The translations under genes were made by a program, and so were the position numbers. The notes under the pieces are model-generated. The model was not told the origin of the DNA. It did not search any database and saw only the letters and a list, made by a program, of their open reading frames with translations. From assembly GCF_900115975.1 (NCBI RefSeq), contig NZ_FOYM01000016.1, forward strand, positions 1 to 64,000: a stretch of DNA of 64,000 bases, read 5' to 3'. Below are positions 12,947-55,562 of this stretch, in pieces; the first letter of the stretch is position 1; each line of letters opens with the position of its first letter. Source of the DNA: Desulfoscipio geothermicus DSM 3669 (lineage in GTDB: Bacteria; Bacillota; Desulfotomaculia; Desulfotomaculales; Desulfallaceae).

Positions 12947-13337
12947 TATCACCGAGGCGGCAGAGCAGGATCTGGCCGAAATTGTTGATTATATCTCAAA
13001 CGACAACCCCGCTGCCGCGCTTAAACTGGCAGAAAATATCGAACAGAGCATTTTACAGCTTGAGGACTTCCCGCTGATCGGCGCAATACCGAAAAATCGA
13101 AGATTAACCCGGCAAGGATATCGTATTTTGATAGTCGATAGTTACTTGGTGTTTTACGTCTCCGATTTTACTTTTTTCATCATTGTTCAGCCTTTCAAGT
13201 TCAACCTTTCAACACCCGGCACCATGTTGACAAGCGGTAGTAAAAAAATTAATATATATGGTAGTTTAAAACAGGCTTTGAAAGGGAGGGCGTCCCGCCA
13301 AAAAGCGACCCAAGAGAGGGAATACCCGTGGCTGTAA
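12927..13337 (+). CDS. RelE/ParE-family toxin with a remodelled, probably inactive C-terminus
   Basis: The first about 85 residues (TEAAEQDLAEIVDYI, LEDFPLIGAIP, GYRILIVDSYLVFYV) are a good RelE/ParE domain. The normal family ending, a last beta strand and Arg/His-rich tail, is missing: after SDFTFFIIVQ the frame runs into a half-copy of repeat B (13207-13223), then into the promoter and Stem I of the valS T-box, ending at 13337. About 45 residues are thus non-homologous read-out. The toxin is probably damaged, while the antitoxin looks intact. It starts at ATG 12927 inside the antitoxin gene. Confidence 0.75.
   Translation: MPKHLISITEAAEQDLAEIVDYISNDNPAAALKLAENIEQSILQLEDFPLIGAIPKNRRLTRQGYRILIVDSYLVFYVSDFTFFIIVQPFKFNLSTPGTMLTSGSKKINIYGSLKQALKGRASRQKATQEREYPWL
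13207..13223 (-). repeat. Family B half-copy B3
   Basis: TTTCAACACCCGGCACC, one arm of the B palindrome (full copies at 48504-48564 and 58121-58178). It lies inside the open frame of the RelE-like toxin, at the point where homology to the family ends, and 4 nt before the -35 box of the valS leader promoter. Confidence 0.7.
13227..13255 (+). promoter_or_regulatory. Sigma-A-type promoter of the valS T-box leader
   Basis: TTGACA (13227-13232), a 17-nt spacer and TAATAT (13250-13255). A start point near 13262 would put the T-box Stem I at the 5' end of the transcript. It lies within the toxin open frame. Confidence 0.7.
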
Positions 13338-13534
13338 GGTATCCCGGTCGCTGCGGTCGCTGTCGCCCCGGAGCCGCCGGGTCGAAAGGTCGAGCGCTGA
13401 TTAGGCCCGCGCCGGGTTCAGCCCGCTATAGCTGACAAGAGCCGCGCGCAAGCCTGCGCATTTCTTCGCCTGCGCCGGAATTAAGGTGGTACCGCGAAGC
13501 CCTTTCGTCCTTAAATGAAAGGGCTTTTATATTT
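13262..13534 (+). ncRNA. T-box riboswitch, valine specifier, upstream of valS
   Basis: Stem I includes the AAGAGAGGG apical-side motif (13312-13320) and ends with GUC-G-CC at 13362-13367, giving a GUC (Val) specifier. The T-box core AAGGTGGTACCGCG is at 13483-13496, followed by a perfect 10-bp terminator stem (13497-13506 with 13517-13526) and a T-rich run. Uncharged tRNA-Val should stabilise the antiterminator and allow valS transcription. The specifier loop looks unusual: 3' of helix GCGACC/GGTCGC only U-GUC-G is left, without the GAA normally before the specifier. Confidence 0.9.
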
Positions 13535-27682: not shown

Positions 27683-30520
27683 ATGAAACGAAAACTGGTT
27701 GAATATAAAATGAAATTCGTGCTGGGCGCGGTAATGCTGGTGCTGTTGGTGCTGCTGGCCAAAATATCCTACCTGCAGCTGGTGCAGACCGAAGAATACC
27801 GTACCATGGCCCGGAACAACTATATCCGTATTGTGCCGGTTTTTGCCCCGCGGGGGGAAATATTTGACCGGGACGGGGAAAAAATTGTCACTAACCGGCC
27901 TATTTACACCGTATCCATCAACGATTTGAACTTACAGGGCACCGCTTACCACCTCTACCTGGACCGTACCGGAGCCGACGCCGTGCGTATGGCCGATACT
28001 CTGGCCTGGATACTGGCCGGCGATGAGGAAGCGGTATTATATTTCGAGCAAATAAGTGACCAGGAGTTGGTGATTGGTGATAATTTCACCGAGGCTGAAG
28101 CCTATACGGTTAAAAAGAAATTTATCGAGGAAACTATCAAGGACCGCATAAGCGGCAACAAAGTCAAACTGGAAACAGGCAAACCCCTGGAAATAGCTGT
28201 GGCTTATCATCCAGAAACGGTCAAAACTTTGCGCCGGCAGGACCTGGCCTCCTTTGGCGTGAGGATGGAAAAGGAAACGGATGAACTGAGCAAGCTGGTG
28301 GCTATGCTGTTTGATGCGGGCGTATTTGAAGATGAAACCCCTTACGAGGTGGAATCACGGGTGCGGCAAAACATCCGGGACAAGAAATGGTACAGGCCCT
28401 ATGAGCCGGTGCTGGTGGCGGAAGATATTCCGCCCCAGATGGTGGTGGCATTGCGTGAAAAGCAAATGGACCTGCCCGGAGTGGTGGTTGATATCAAGCC
28501 TACCCGGGCCTATCCCCACAAAGAACTGCTCAGCCACGTACTGGGTTACGTGCAGAACATCAATGCCGAGCAGTACCGGGAGCATAAAGATGAAGGTTAT
28601 TTAATGAACGACCTGTTCGGGCAAAACGGCCTGGAAAAGGTTTATGAAAAATACCTGCGCGGCGAGCACGGCGCCCGGCAGGTGGAGGTGGACGCCAGCA
28701 GCCGCCCGGTGCGCGATTTGGGCATGAAGCAGCCGGTGCCCGGCAACGATCTGGTGCTGACTGTTGACCTGGAATTGCAAAAGGCGGCGGAACAGGCGCT
28801 GGCGGACGGGGTAAAACGGGCCCAGCAGGCGGGTTACGTTTATTCCAAGGGCGGTGCGGCGGTGGTGATGGATGTGAACACCGGGGCTGTCCTGGCCATG
28901 GCCAGTTACCCGGGGTTTGAGCCGCAGCTTTTTGAAGGGGGGCTGTCCGAAACTCAATACCGGGAGCTGCAGGAATCAAAGGCGCTGATGAACCGCGCCA
29001 TCACCGGCTTATATCCCCCGGGGTCAACATTTAAGATGGTGACGGCGGCGGCCATACTGGAAAATAAGGTCGTGGATCCCGAATATAAAATGCCCGACCC
29101 GGGTTATTTCATGTTAGGCAAAGGGCGTTTCCGGGACTGGAAGCCCGGCGGGCACGGTTCGGTTGACCTACGTGAGGCCCTGGAAGTTTCGTGTGACACA
29201 TATTTTTACAAATTCGGGCTGCAGGTCGGGGTAAATGCCATTGCCCATTACGCCCGGGAATTCGGGCTTGGGGAAAAAACCGGCATTAATTTGCCCGGGG
29301 AAATGGGCGGCGCGGTACCTACCCCGCAATACAAATATGATAAGGAAAAGTCTTTCCTGGTTTGGACGCATAAAGATTTTGCCCGGGTTCGCGAACTGAA
29401 TGAAGCAATTGATAATGCTGATACCGAAGAGCAAAAGCAGCAATTAAGGCGCTTGCGGGATAAAGAACTGGAAAAACAGCTGAAGAAATTCGAGTGGAAT
29501 TTGAACTGGCATGCCTACGATACGGTGAACATGTCCACCGGACAGGGTTACAATATGTACACGCCGCTGCAGTTGGCTGCATACGTAACGGCCATAGCCA
29601 ACGGGGGTATCCTGTATCGCCCTTACCTGGTGGATAAGATTGTTTCCCCGGACGGCAAGGTGGTTAAAGAATTCGCGCCCAAAGTCAGGCAAAAGGTGGA
29701 TATTAAACCGGATAACCTGCAGATTATCCGGGAAGGGATGCACATGGTGACCTTACCGCCGGCCGGCACCGCGGCTGCGGTTTTTGCCGGGGCCAAGTAT
29801 ACGGCGGCGGCTAAAACGGGTACAGCGGAAAACGAAAAGGGAGAAGGTAACGCCCACGCCCTGTTTGTGTCCTTCGCGCCCTATGAAAAACCCGAAGTGG
29901 CAGTGGCTGTGGTGTTGGAGTACGGCCATTCCGGCAGCGGTTACGCCGGACCCATTGCCCGGCAGATCCTGGACGCTTACTTTGCCGGGCAGGAACCGGT
30001 CGAACCCGGTGACGCGACGGCACAGAAACCGGGTGACGCCACGACCGGCGTGGAAACGCCGGACCGGGCGGAAACTGAACAGGCTGACAATCCGGTAGAT
30101 TGGGCGGCTATACCGTCTTTAAACTGGCCGGGCTGGGAGCCGGAACCCGGTCCCGAAACGACCGGCCCGGCATCCCGGCCGGCGATGCCGGGAGCCGGGG
30201 AACACGCGCAGCCGGCCTCGCCGGCACAAACCACAGTACGGCCCGAAGTGCCGGCCGGGCAGTCACGGCGGGTGGTTGTTCCTGCTGAGCGGCAACCTGC
30301 CCCTGCAACTGCTCCCGCGCCCGAGGCGGTACCCGGCCTACCGGTGCAGCAGTCTGAGCCGCAGCAAGCCCACCCGGCCCCGTCGATACCGGACCGGGTG
30401 CCGGAGCAGAACCTGCCGCCGCAAACGCCCGCACCGCTGCAGGGCGCGCAGGAACAACCGGCCCCGCCGCCGGCCGGGCCGGAAGAACAGGCGGAAAACC
30501 GGCAAAATATTGATGAGTAA
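27683..30520 (+). CDS. mrdA: Elongation-specific penicillin-binding protein 2 with long Pro-rich tail
   Basis: 945 residues, long for PBP2 (usually 600-750). A membrane helix (about 12-32) is followed by the dimerisation domain (VFAPRGEIFDRDG) and the transpeptidase domain with PPGSTFKM (SxxK), SCDTY and AAKTGTAEN (KTG). There is a helical insertion with LREL-type heptads around residues 555-600. From about residue 775 to the end is a low-complexity Pro/Ala/Glu/Gln extension with no recognised domain, probably outside the cell and possibly wall-spanning. It ends the mre operon; RodA is encoded 5 kb downstream. Confidence 0.95.
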   Translation: MKRKLVEYKMKFVLGAVMLVLLVLLAKISYLQLVQTEEYRTMARNNYIRIVPVFAPRGEIFDRDGEKIVTNRPIYTVSINDLNLQGTAYHLYLDRTGADAVRMADTLAWILAGDEEAVLYFEQISDQELVIGDNFTEAEAYTVKKKFIEETIKDRISGNKVKLETGKPLEIAVAYHPETVKTLRRQDLASFGVRMEKETDELSKLVAMLFDAGVFEDETPYEVESRVRQNIRDKKWYRPYEPVLVAEDIPPQMVVALREKQMDLPGVVVDIKPTRAYPHKELLSHVLGYVQNINAEQYREHKDEGYLMNDLFGQNGLEKVYEKYLRGEHGARQVEVDASSRPVRDLGMKQPVPGNDLVLTVDLELQKAAEQALADGVKRAQQAGYVYSKGGAAVVMDVNTGAVLAMASYPGFEPQLFEGGLSETQYRELQESKALMNRAITGLYPPGSTFKMVTAAAILENKVVDPEYKMPDPGYFMLGKGRFRDWKPGGHGSVDLREALEVSCDTYFYKFGLQVGVNAIAHYAREFGLGEKTGINLPGEMGGAVPTPQYKYDKEKSFLVWTHKDFARVRELNEAIDNADTEEQKQQLRRLRDKELEKQLKKFEWNLNWHAYDTVNMSTGQGYNMYTPLQLAAYVTAIANGGILYRPYLVDKIVSPDGKVVKEFAPKVRQKVDIKPDNLQIIREGMHMVTLPPAGTAAAVFAGAKYTAAAKTGTAENEKGEGNAHALFVSFAPYEKPEVAVAVVLEYGHSGSGYAGPIARQILDAYFAGQEPVEPGDATAQKPGDATTGVETPDRAETEQADNPVDWAAIPSLNWPGWEPEPGPETTGPASRPAMPGAGEHAQPASPAQTTVRPEVPAGQSRRVVVPAERQPAPATAPAPEAVPGLPVQQSEPQQAHPAPSIPDRVPEQNLPPQTPAPLQGAQEQPAPPPAGPEEQAENRQNIDE

Positions 30521-50762: not shown

Positions 50763-50791
50763 TTGACTTTATGGATTGAATATCTTATAAT
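50763..50791 (+). promoter_or_regulatory. Sigma-A promoter of the T-box/tRNA-Ala leader
   Basis: TTGACT (50763-50768), an exact 17-nt spacer and a consensus TATAAT (50786-50791). This strong promoter would transcribe the T-box leader and the tRNA inside it. Confidence 0.85.
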
Positions 50792-50797
50792 AAGGCT

Positions 50798-51125
50798 CAG
50801 GTTTAATAATGAAAAACATTGAAGGGGAGTAGTAATCCATAGCATTATCCCCAGAGAGCCGCCGGTTGGTGCGAGGCGGTGGGTAATGCGGGTGAACTCG
50901 CCCCGGAGTTGCCCGGGGGAAAGCTGTCAAGTACACCGGGCCGGTGCGTGCCGTTAGCACGTTGAGCGGTTAAAGTTATGGGGATGTAGCTCAGATGGGA
51001 GAGCGCCTGAATGGCATTCAGGAGGTCAGGGGTTCGATCCCCCTCATCTCCACCACATAACTTTATCAATTAGGGTGGTACCGCGAGTAAACCTCTCGTC
51101 CCTAAACAGGACAAGGGGTTTTTTG
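50798..51125 (+). ncRNA. T-box riboswitch, Leu (CUC) specifier, interrupted by a tRNA gene
   Basis: Stem I is canonical: GGGG (50824-50827) pairs with CCCC (50901-50904). The internal loop has AGUAGUA on one side and GAACUCG on the other, giving specifier CUC at 50897-50899. GCAUUA pairs with UAAUGC above it, then AGAGAGCCGCC and GGCGG. Further stems end at GAGCGGT (50964-50970). After the inserted tRNA, AGGGTGGTACCGCGAG (51072-51087) forms the antiterminator with CTCGTCCCT (51095-51103), and a terminator stem (51090-51120) with a T-run follows. The UGGU bulge (51076-51079) suits an ACCA tRNA end. Next gene: acyl-CoA synthetase. Confidence 0.9.
50980..51055 (+). tRNA. tRNA-Ala (anticodon GGC), embedded in a T-box leader
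   Basis: 76 nt with encoded CCA. Acceptor GGGGATG pairs with CATCTCC with one G-U; D arm GCTC-AGATGGGA-GAGC; anticodon stem CCTGA/TCAGG around ATGGCAT, anticodon GGC; T arm AGGGG-TTCGATC-CCCCT; end ACCA. All stems are intact, so it should be functional. It is flanked by TAAAGTTAT (50971-50979) and ATAACTTTA (51057-51065), exact reverse complements that extend the acceptor stem. No promoter of its own was found between Stem I and the tRNA. Confidence 0.97.
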
Positions 51126-51248
51126 TTTTCTAATATACCCGTGCCGCCGGCGCGGCAAAATCAGAAGGGTGATATGTTTTACTTTCAAGGCATTGTAGAT
51201 TCTATATTCTTTAATGCGTTAACTCGATAAAGGATTAGGGGTGACAAC

Positions 51249-52913
51249 ATGATTAAAAATTGGGACCAGATAACCATCGGGGACTTGCTGGACCGGGCGG
51301 CGGGCCGTTACCCGCACAATGAAGCCTTGGTTTACCCGGACCGGAATCTCAGGTATACATACCGGCAGTTTCAACAGAAATGCAACCGGGTGGCCAAAGG
51401 GTTAATGGCTTTGGGGATCAAACGGGGCGAGCATATCGCCATCCTGGCGCCCAATGTGCCGGAGTGGGTGATTTGCCAGTTTGCCAGCGCTAAAATGGGC
51501 GCTGTCCTTACAACGGTCAATACCAATTACAAATTATTTGAGTTGGAGTACCTGCTTCGCCAGTCCGATGCCACCACCTTGATTTTTACCGGCGGGACCA
51601 AAGAAACTAACTATATAAATATGGTATATGAACTTTGCCCGGAACTTTATGACAGCATGCCCGGCCGGTTAAACAGCAAAAAGCTGCCCATGCTGAAAAA
51701 TCTGATATTTATCGGCGAAGAATCAATGCCGGGAATGTTTACCTGGGAACAAATGCTGGCCCTGGGTGAGAGAATTTCCGGCGAGGAACTGATAGCCCGG
51801 CAGCTTTCCCTGGAGCCGGACGATGTGGCCAACATGCAGTATACCTCGGGTACCACCGGCTTCCCCAAGGGAGTTATGCTTACGCACCGCAACCTGGTGG
51901 GGAATGCTTTGGGTATAGGCAAGTGCATGAATTTCAGTCCCGACGACCGCCTGTGTATCCCGGTGCCGCTGTTCCATTGCTTCGGTTGTGTGCTGGGCAC
52001 TTTGTCCTGTGTTTCTTATGCGTCCACCATGGTAGTGCTGGAAACATTCAACCCGGTCAAGGTTCTGGAAGCGGTGGAGAAAGAGCGGTGTACCGCGCTG
52101 CACGGGGTGCCTACCATGTTTATCACCGAGCTGGAGGTGCTGGAAAATCAGCCCTATGACACTTCTTCCCTGCGCACCGGCATTATGGCCGGAGCGCCGT
52201 GCCCCATTGAAGTGATGCGGGCCGTGGTGGAGAAAATGGGCATGCGTGAAATAGTGATCACTTACGGCCAGACCGAAGCCGCACCGGGCATTACCATGAC
52301 CAAGACGGATGACCCGCTGGAAGTGAGGGTGGCCACGGTGGGTAAAGCTCTGGACGGGGTGGAGGTCAAAGTAGTGGACCCGGCCAGCGGAGAAGAACTG
52401 CCCCCGGGCCGCCAGGGAGAAATATGCGCCCGCGGTTACAACGTAATGAAGGGGTATTACAAAATGCCCGAAGCGACCGCTGCCGCCATTGACAAGGACG
52501 GCTGGCTGCACACAGGTGACCTGGGAATCATGGATGAAAAAGGTTACCTGCGCATTACCGGCAGGATCAAGGATATGATCATCCGGGGCGGGGAGAACAT
52601 TTATCCCCGGGAAATTGAAGAATTCCTCTATACCCACCCGCAGATCAAAGATGTGCAGGTGGTTGGCGTGCCAAGCAAGAAGTACGGGGAAGAAGTGATG
52701 GCCTTTATCCAGTTAAAAGAGGGGGCCGGGGTAACCGATGAGGATGTCAAGAATTATTGCGCGGGTAAGATAGCCCGGTATAAAATTCCCTCGTACATCC
52801 AATTTGTAGATAGTTACCCCACCACCGCCAACGGCAAAGTGCAAAAATTCAAGCTGCGGGAAATGGGTATCAAAAGAATATCCAAAGGGGATGGGACAGC
52901 GGGGATAGTTTAA
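51249..52913 (+). CDS. AMP-forming acyl-CoA synthetase
   Basis: 554 residues of the ANL superfamily: P-loop-like YTSGTTGFPKGVMLTHRN near residue 200, ITYGQTEAAPG, GWLHTGDLGIMDEKGYLRITGRIKD and the C-terminal catalytic Lys in TTANGKVQKFKLR. It resembles medium- or long-chain and other fatty acyl-CoA synthetases; the acid is not predictable. It lies just behind the Leu-type T-box, which may make its expression respond to leucyl-tRNA charging; a branched-chain acid substrate would fit but is speculation. ATG 51249; the ribosome site (TTAGGGGTGA) is moderate. Confidence 0.93.
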   Translation: MIKNWDQITIGDLLDRAAGRYPHNEALVYPDRNLRYTYRQFQQKCNRVAKGLMALGIKRGEHIAILAPNVPEWVICQFASAKMGAVLTTVNTNYKLFELEYLLRQSDATTLIFTGGTKETNYINMVYELCPELYDSMPGRLNSKKLPMLKNLIFIGEESMPGMFTWEQMLALGERISGEELIARQLSLEPDDVANMQYTSGTTGFPKGVMLTHRNLVGNALGIGKCMNFSPDDRLCIPVPLFHCFGCVLGTLSCVSYASTMVVLETFNPVKVLEAVEKERCTALHGVPTMFITELEVLENQPYDTSSLRTGIMAGAPCPIEVMRAVVEKMGMREIVITYGQTEAAPGITMTKTDDPLEVRVATVGKALDGVEVKVVDPASGEELPPGRQGEICARGYNVMKGYYKMPEATAAAIDKDGWLHTGDLGIMDEKGYLRITGRIKDMIIRGGENIYPREIEEFLYTHPQIKDVQVVGVPSKKYGEEVMAFIQLKEGAGVTDEDVKNYCAGKIARYKIPSYIQFVDSYPTTANGKVQKFKLREMGIKRISKGDGTAGIV

Positions 52914-53078: not shown

Positions 53079-55562
53079 ATGAAGGACCGTTATGATTTTA
53101 AGGAAATAGAAGCCAAGTGGCAACAAAAGTGGGCTGAACAGGATATTTACGCTGTTCCTGATTTCAGCGACCGGCCCAAGTATTACTGCCTGGAGATGTT
53201 CCCCTACCCCTCGGGAAAACTGCACATGGGGCACGTGCGCAATTATTCCATTGGCGACGTGGTGGCCCGTTATAAAACCATGCAGGGTTTCAATGTGCTG
53301 CACCCCATGGGGTGGGACGCCTTCGGCCTGCCGGCGGAAAACGCGGCCATCAAGCACGGGGCGCTGCACCCGGCCCAGTGGACCAAGGACAATATAGACG
53401 CCATGCGCGCGCAGTTGAAACAGCTGGGCATCAGTTACGACTGGAACCGGGAGGTGGCCACCTGTCATCCCGGTTACTACAAGTGGACCCAGTGGTTGTT
53501 CCTGCAGTTGTATCACAAAGGGCTGGCTTACAAAAAGAAAGCGGCCGTCAACTGGTGTCCTTCCTGCGCTACTGTACTGGCCAACGAGCAGGTCAAGGAG
53601 GGTATATGCGAGCGCTGCGCCAGTGATGTGGAGAAAAGGGAACTGGAACAGTGGTTCTTTAAGATCACCGACTACGCCGACCGGCTGCTGGCCGACCTGG
53701 ACAAGTTGCAGGGATGGCCGGACAAGGTCAAGATCATGCAGGAGAACTGGATCGGGCGCAGCGAAGGCGCTGAGATTACTTTTACCATAGACGGGTTTGA
53801 TGAAACCATCACGGTTTTCACCACCCGGCCGGATACGATATACGGTGTCACTTACATGGTGCTGGCGCCGGAGCATCCGCTGGTGGAAAAACTGATCGCG
53901 GGCCGGCCCCAGGCTGAACAAGTTAAAGAATTTGTAGCCCGGGTACGCAACCAGAGCGAGCTGGCCCGCACCTCCACCGAGACGGAGAAAATCGGCCTGC
54001 CAACCGGCGCTTACTGTGTCAACCCGCTGAGCGGGGAAAAGGTGCCCATCCTGGTGGCCAACTACGTGCTTTTGGAGTACGGCACCGGCGCGGTGATGGG
54101 CGTGCCGGCGCACGACCAGCGTGACTTTGAATTCGCCCGTAAATACAACCTGCCCATCCGGGTGGTTATTCAGCCCGAGGGTGCGGAACTGGAACCGGAT
54201 TCCATGACCGAGGCGTACGACGGCGAGGGCTTGATGGTCAATTCCGGGCCCTTTGACGGCACTCCCAACCGGGAAGGCATTGCCGCCGTCACCCGTTACC
54301 TGGAGGAAAGGGGTCTGGGCAAAGGCCGCGTTAATTACCGCCTGCGGGACTGGCTTATTTCCCGGCAGCGTTACTGGGGTGCACCCATCCCCATAATTTA
54401 CTGTGACCGGTGCGGCGTGGTGCCGGTGCCCGAAGAGGATTTGCCCGTCATGCTGCCCATGGATGTGGCCTTCAAGCCCACCGGTCGTTCACCGCTGGAG
54501 GAACACCGGGACTTTGTCAATACCGCCTGCCCGTCCTGCGGCGGTCCGGCCCGCCGGGAAACGGACACCATGGACACCTTCATGTGTTCATCATGGTATT
54601 ACTACCGGTACACCAGCCCGCGGGACGAAGACAACGCCTGGGACCCGGACAAAGTCCGCCGGTGGCTGCCGGTGGACCAGTACATCGGCGGCGTGGAGCA
54701 CGCCATATTGCACCTGCTGTACAGCCGGTTCTTTACCAAGGTGCTGTGCGACCTGAAACTGGTGGATAACGACGAGCCCTTTACCAACCTGCTCACCCAG
54801 GGCATGGTGCTCAAGGACGGGGCTAAAATGAGCAAGTCCAAAGGCAATGTAGTGAGCCCGGAAGATATTGTGGCCGCCTACGGGGCCGATACCGCCCGGC
54901 TGTTCATTCTGTTTGCTTCGCCGCCCGAGCGGGACCTGGAATGGAGCGACCAGGGCGTGGAGGGCTGTTACCGCTTCCTGAACCGGGTCTGGCGGTTGGT
55001 GGCGCCGCTGGGCGATACGCCGGCGGGCGCGCCATTGCCCGGGAACGCCAAGCTGGCCGGGGTTAACAAGGACATGCGCCGGGTGACCCACCAGGCTATC
55101 AAGAAGGTTACCGAGGATGTGGGCAACCGGTTCAACTTCAATACGGCGGTCAGCGCCATCATGGAACTGGTCAACGCCATGTACCAGTACCGGGAAGTGC
55201 CCGAATGCGACCGCGACGCCGGGGTATTGCGCGAGGCGGTGGATGCGCTGCTGCTGTTGCTGGCTCCCTTTGCTCCGCATATCACCGAGGAATTATGGGC
55301 TGTTACGGGTCACGAGGGCAGCATCCACGCCATGCCGTGGCCGGCTTACGACCCGGAGGCCATTGTAGAGGACGAAATTACCATCGTGGTGCAGATCAAC
55401 GGCAAGGTACGGGACCGCATGCTGGTGCCGGCCGGCATGGAGCCGGATGCCATGCAGGAGCTGGTGATGCAGCAGGAGCGGGTTCAGCAATTGATTGGGG
55501 ACAAAAAAGTTCTTAAGGTGATTCCCGTGCCCGGTAAGCTGGTAAATATTGTAGTAAAATAA
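53079..55562 (+). CDS. leuS: Leucyl-tRNA synthetase
   Basis: 827 residues. HIGH motif [16 protein letters not shown] near residue 45, editing domain with [24 protein letters not shown] loop [16 protein letters not shown], and C-terminal domain ending [14 protein letters not shown]. Class I synthetase charging tRNA-Leu. ATG follows GGGAGGATGCC. No T-box of its own is visible in the 165-bp gap; the nearest is the Leu-specifier T-box before the acyl-CoA synthetase gene. Confidence 0.97.

Follow-up and report, generated by a model that had tools for sequence, protein, structure and literature searches.

In the E. coli tufB operon, which gives a tRNA–mRNA cotranscript, tRNA is excised from the leader of a transcript that also encodes protein. 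The tufB tRNAs lie beside regulatory RNA, whereas the tRNA gene described here lies inside a helix of a regulatory RNA. We analyzed a window of 64,000 nt, i.e., the whole stretch of Desulfoscipio geothermicus DSM 3669 DNA under study (contig NZ_FOYM01000016.1, positions 1 to 64,000). T-box riboswitches of the transcriptional leuS class (RF00230) contain Stem I with a specifier, the RRRxG-Stem III-AA motif, a UGGN bulge, an overlapping antiterminator and terminator, and a leucyl-tRNA synthetase (LeuRS) gene downstream, and the leader in the window shares these features. However, its Stem III loop contains a complete tRNA-Ala(GGC) gene, which is unrelated to the sensed amino acid. Translational T-boxes also carry additional sequence in the Stem III of the discriminator (PMC7583486); in contrast, the insert in the window is a whole functional-looking tRNA, and the T-box is of the transcription-terminating type. 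GOLLD RNA, a phage-associated large structured non-coding RNA whose function is unknown, holds tRNAs in its linker (PMC12286853), whereas the window holds a chromosomal riboswitch with the sole isoacceptor gene of the host. The individual parts, i.e., the T-box, the variability of Stem III, tRNA–mRNA cotranscripts and tRNAs in GOLLD RNA, are known. In the open-licence literature, we found no T-box described as the carrier of a tRNA gene, although subscription papers on T-box genomics may report one.

The leader and the genes behind it were assembled from the following features, all on the plus strand.

50763..50791, + strand: putative sigma-70-type promoter, TTGACT-17-TATAAT, with 11/12 matches (consensus match only)
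50810..51106, + strand: T-box leader (RF00230) into which the tRNA is inserted; full model matched (1-219) at 134.7 bits, E 8.7e-30
50816..50910, + strand: Stem I (approximate limits), with the motifs AGUA, AGAGA and GGUG (cmscan alignment)
50897..50899, + strand: specifier CUC (leucine), after GAA (cmscan alignment)
50964..50968, + strand: RRRxG motif (GAGCG), 5' of Stem III (sequence; motif as in PMC7583486 and PMC7778990)
50969..50979, + strand: 5' arm of Stem III, including the helix arm 50971-50979 (sequence, cmscan, fold, relatives)
50980..51055, + strand: tRNA-Ala(GGC) with G3:U70, A73 and encoded CCA, in the Stem III loop (ARAGORN; RF00005, 65.2 bits)
51057..51067, + strand: 3' arm of Stem III, including the helix arm 51057-51065 (sequence, cmscan, fold, relatives)
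51068..51069, + strand: AA of the RRRxG-Stem III-AA motif (sequence; AA at equal spacing in 114/125 carriers, see below)
51072..51103, + strand: antiterminator, AGGGUGGUACCGCG...CUCGUCCCU, with the T-box bulge UGGU at 51076-51079 (cmscan alignment)
51090..51129, + strand: intrinsic terminator, AACCUCUCGUCC/GGACAAGGGGUU and a U-run, overlapping the 3' half of the antiterminator (sequence; computed fold)
51249..52913, + strand: AMP-binding acyl-CoA synthetase-like protein, 554 aa, first gene past the T-box (named from sequence)
53079..55562, + strand: leuS, leucyl-tRNA synthetase, 827 aa (sequence)

The RF00230 score exceeded the curated gathering threshold of 93 bits, and the leader was the top-scoring of the 12 T-boxes in the genome. 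The specifier fits the regulated gene: CUC is followed downstream by leuS, and a tRNA-Leu(GAG) is encoded in the genome. In the sequence and the computed fold, the terminator hairpin proper spans 51090-51120 and is followed by the U-run; a simple consensus terminator scan gave no entry for this hairpin. These motifs make the leader a leucine-specific (CUC) T-box of the transcription-terminating type, located before the acyl-CoA synthetase gene and leuS.

The feature that drew attention to the locus was an inverted repeat around the tRNA gene. TAAAGTTAT (50971-50979) is the exact reverse complement of ATAACTTTA (51057-51065), as the initial annotation had claimed, and a single nucleotide, C51056, separates the encoded CCA end of the tRNA from the 3' arm. 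An extra pair, G50969-C51067, lies below the 9-bp helix, beneath a U.U mismatch. In the RF00230 alignment, the tRNA appears as 82 nt inserted into the loop of the third stem, and the helix is that stem. RRRxG-Stem III-AA is the discriminator motif of T-boxes (PMC7583486, PMC7778990); with RRRxG and AA on its flanks, the 9-bp helix is identified as the apical part of Stem III. The helix was present in the predicted minimum free energy (MFE) fold of 50798-51125, again as the initial annotation had expected; eight of its pairs had probabilities of 0.94-0.99, and the outermost pair had one of 0.62. The same MFE fold, however, lacks the cloverleaf. When ViennaRNA folded the insert without constraint, the helix was kept and the cloverleaf was replaced by other hairpins (-38.2 vs -31.3, ~7 kcal/mol). 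This fold may arise because the model ignores tertiary contacts and modifications, or it may be a real competitor. The free-energy gain of the helix on the cloverleaf was ~4 kcal/mol (from -27.3 to -31.3), which is small because of the 5-nt bulge.

According to ARAGORN and RF00005, the nested gene has the cloverleaf of an alanine tRNA, and it has the anticodon GGC, G3:U70 and A73. In the source genome, which is 99.99% complete, the tRNA-Ala genes found have the anticodons UGC, CGC and, in the embedded gene, GGC; the embedded gene is thus the sole tRNA-Ala(GGC) found there. Therefore, a cell that uses tRNA-Ala(GGC) must get it from the T-box leader. A GGC pattern search of 50 carrier genomes gave a match in 47, with exactly one match in 45. 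The nested tRNA at least looks selected.

We searched 84,980 species genomes of a public collection with a pattern that joined a tRNA T-loop to the T-box core, which gave at least 120 stretches. Among the matches listed, 96 entries had an ARAGORN tRNA call immediately 5' of the core, where the window and its own locus (L001) are both counted, and 87 of the 96 were tRNA-Ala(GGC). The other nine tRNAs near the GGTGGNACCGCG string among these matches belong to Asn, Glu, Gln, Pro, Arg and Ser and are apparently chance neighbours, and the listed matches included no tRNA nested in a T-box of other specificity. A strict pattern matched 33/113 genomes of the order and 70/398 of the phylum, with 1 match for the reversed control in the phylum set; these counts are lower bounds because carriers with the variant cores GGTATCGCG, GGTAACGCG and GGTACCACG exist. 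The latter were picked up through T-box length and inspection upstream of leuS.

The pooled set comprised at least 125 distinct loci with a nested tRNA (carriers) from Bacillota, Chloroflexota/Thermomicrobia, Armatimonadota and others; the phylum labels are those of the submitters, and many carriers are metagenome bins. They include Syntrophomonas, Thermosyntropha, Desulfofundulus, Symbiobacterium, Thermaerobacter and Sphaerobacter, as well as members of Chloroflexota, Thermomicrobiales, Armatimonadota, Coprothermobacterota, Caldisericota and one Actinomycetota MAG. The anticodon was GGC in every one of the 125 pooled carriers, all 125 had the alanine identity pair G3:U70, and the specifier was CUC in every carrier with a visible Stem I. 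Among the matches listed, nearly all carriers with enough sequence had a LeuRS gene downstream, as the first gene or as the second after, e.g., ilvE, GNAT or acyl-CoA synthetase. Of 18 diverse carrier loci that were searched with Rfam, 9 scored above the cut-off across the tRNA and 8 scored below it with low E-values; one of these eight (L115) matched upstream of the tRNA only. In a LeuRS tree, the carriers grouped largely by phylum, which is compatible with old and mostly vertical inheritance but does not prove it. At the 5' border of the tRNA, U was found at -1 in 97/125 carriers and A or G at -2 in 111/125, while 24/125 lacked an encoded CCA. E. coli RNase P is reported to work best with A(-2)U(-1) (PMC9433436), and the U(-1) and the purine at -2 fit the preferences of RNase P.

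Two variants of the arrangement were observed among the carriers. In 12 from Chloroflexota (L018, L046, L049, L074, L086, L088, L089, L109, L112, L113, L114 and L118), the nested GGC tRNA is preceded on the same strand, at a distance of ~200-290 nt, by a second tRNA-Ala with the anticodon CGC, which seems to lie immediately ahead of Stem I. In L032, L057, L064 and L072, which are labelled Coprothermobacterota, Caldisericota and one Firmicutes MAG, Stem I is strongly shortened and lacks the AGAGA and GGUG loops.

The pairing of Stem III was then compared across carriers by motif-anchored counting of 77 distinct arm pairs, with 5000 partner shuffles. Native pairing was 80.3%, a figure depressed by residual anchoring errors, as opposed to 58.8 +/- 1.6% with shuffled partners and a shuffle maximum of 65.0% in 5000. 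By position, the first six pairs were formed in 76-90% of carriers. Two-sided changes were frequent (T-A 54 and C-G 34 at position 3; G-C 55 and A-T 29 at position 2); in the family of the window, 12 relatives have C-G as pair 9, where the window has U-A. Pairing above the shuffled level together with the two-sided changes indicates that Stem III is under selection, and the covarying pairing that had been predicted for homologues was thus found. The geometry was a different matter. A helix abutting the acceptor stem, with no 5' linker and at most 1 nt after CCA, occurred in the window only among the 125 pooled carriers, so that the stacking proposed by the initial annotation applies to the window sequence and does not extend to its homologues. 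Within the family of the window, the two pairs adjoining the acceptor stem were both formed only in the window and L188, and these topmost two pairs are usually broken. What the carriers conserve is therefore the base of Stem III rather than a clamp around the tRNA.

Relatives in the same order showed that Stem III persists independently of the tRNA. LeuS T-boxes without a tRNA carry an ordinary Stem III at the equivalent place (L224, GGTAAA-ACGTC-TTTACC; L225; L232-L237; L262), and these empty relatives retain all T-box motifs. In L264, Stem III is kept around a recognizable tRNA-Ala remnant; in L196, L226, L231, L189 and L215, it is kept around a more degraded insert that probably derives from a decayed tRNA. 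The proposal that the stem had been built for the tRNA therefore finds no support, since the stem is a canonical Stem III that is also found in leuS T-boxes with no tRNA or with a decayed one. The related proposal that the tRNA forms a domain within the riboswitch fared better, in that the tRNA is embedded between Stem I and the antiterminator, its flanks pair, and the T-box motifs are intact.

In a further set of loci (L238, L239, L241, L243, L247, L248 and L230), a free-standing tRNA-Ala(GGC) lies just upstream of leuS, and an Rfam search of these free-standing loci gave no T-box or remnant. In five of them (L238, L239, L243, L247 and L248), the tRNA lies between an rsfS-looking gene and leuS and is followed by a T-box-like terminator (CCTCTCATCC...), which may be the remnant of a T-box or may represent the ancestral state; as Rfam gave no T-box there, T-box loss at these loci would follow solely from the resemblance of the terminator. 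Most genomes with an empty or decayed T-box have a GGC copy elsewhere (G083, seven of family f8, G135, G136 and G138). The GGC pattern search gave no match elsewhere in G084, G146 and G148; as G146 and G148 have a decayed tRNA, the tRNA may be dispensable in some species. The empty, decayed and free-standing versions indicate that the tRNA and the T-box act as two modules, each of which can be lost without the other.

We consider it highly probable that the locus encodes a nested dual-function RNA, in which the leuS riboswitch is also a pre-tRNA and Stem III serves as an insulating scaffold. The leader would be transcribed from the constitutive-looking promoter, and Stem I would read tRNA-Leu via the CUC specifier. 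Stem III with its flanking purines, together with the antiterminator, would choose between termination and read-through of acs-leuS. The nested tRNA would form its own domain at the end of Stem III and be freed from the leader by RNase P and 3' processing. Stem III would have a double role, i.e., that of the usual discriminator stem and that of an insulator against mutual misfolding of the tRNA and the riboswitch. Because the tRNA is nested upstream of the terminator, the terminated leader and the read-through mRNA would both contain it; as the tRNA would be present in every leader transcribed past it, its supply should be leucine-independent.

Several points speak against the dual-function reading: ViennaRNA favours the non-cloverleaf fold of the insert, albeit with Stem III kept; cleavage by RNase P would part Stem I from the antiterminator; G146 and G148 combine a decayed tRNA with no GGC match elsewhere; and 24/125 carriers have no encoded CCA. 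Cleavage may follow the termination decision, or the halves may be held by Stem III; both are possible. In an extended form of the latter, which we regard as distinctly unlikely, the riboswitch would be bipartite: after excision of the tRNA, the arms of Stem III would join the halves and the T-box would remain able to switch, and leuS expression would be coupled to tRNA maturation through the competition of excision with antitermination. In an idea that goes back to the initial annotation, Stem III might otherwise be selected as an extended acceptor stem that delays RNase P until the decision has been made and then joins the halves of the leader. Pairing that lengthens the acceptor stem does slow E. 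coli RNase P (PMC9433436), the helix adjoins the acceptor stem in the window, and the base of the stem is paired in most carriers, so that the halves could remain joined. However, the inhibition in PMC9433436 involves a paired 3' RCCA, whereas the RCCA of the window is unpaired; moreover, the abutting geometry was found in 1/125 carriers, the top two pairs are mostly disrupted in the family, and Stem III also occurs without a tRNA. Selection for such delayed processing is thus unlikely.

The tRNA gene could instead be a passenger that a permissive loop next to leuS tolerates, contributing little, with the T-box working as if the tRNA were absent. The Stem III loop is variable (PMC7583486), and the order also contains T-boxes whose tRNA is missing or decayed, as this explanation would have it. 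Nevertheless, we hold it to be quite improbable, given that the gene is the sole GGC copy in nearly all carriers tested, that its identity elements are intact in 125 carriers, and that the nesting extends across several phyla. Conversely, the nested tRNA-Ala may itself join the switch, e.g., through cis pairing of ACCA (51052-51055) with the complementary UGGU (51076-51079) ~20 nt away, or through co-transcriptional binding of AlaRS, EF-Tu or RNase P. In the carriers found, the nested tRNA is always tRNA-Ala(GGC) and never another isoacceptor, which would suit such a role, but 24/125 carriers have no encoded CCA and the empty relatives keep all T-box motifs. In addition, 5/125 carriers combine a UGGC bulge with A73 in the nested tRNA; that is, the bulge and the tRNA end do not covary. 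A built-in regulatory domain therefore appears very improbable.

Under the dual-function reading, RNase P would need to cut within a regulatory helix that encloses a sole isoacceptor gene, and two fields would meet at this locus. Whether excision comes before or after the termination decision, and whether the T-box survives excision, are testable questions. If the bipartite reading were true, the riboswitch would be functional after being cut in two. Stem III naturally accommodates an inserted folded domain of ~76 nt, which is useful for engineering, and the evolution of the arrangement is traceable because empty, filled, decayed and free-standing versions occur in one bacterial order. T-box surveys that are blind to insertions may have missed the nested tRNA.

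Two other matches were observed in the window. A second T-box match at 13269-13515 was weak (53.4 bits) and below the cut-off. ARAGORN called a tRNA-Cys(GCA) of 84 nt at 30391-30474 on the minus strand, for which the Rfam tRNA model gave no match; a normal tRNA-Cys lies elsewhere in the genome, and the call is possibly false or an odd tRNA-like sequence.
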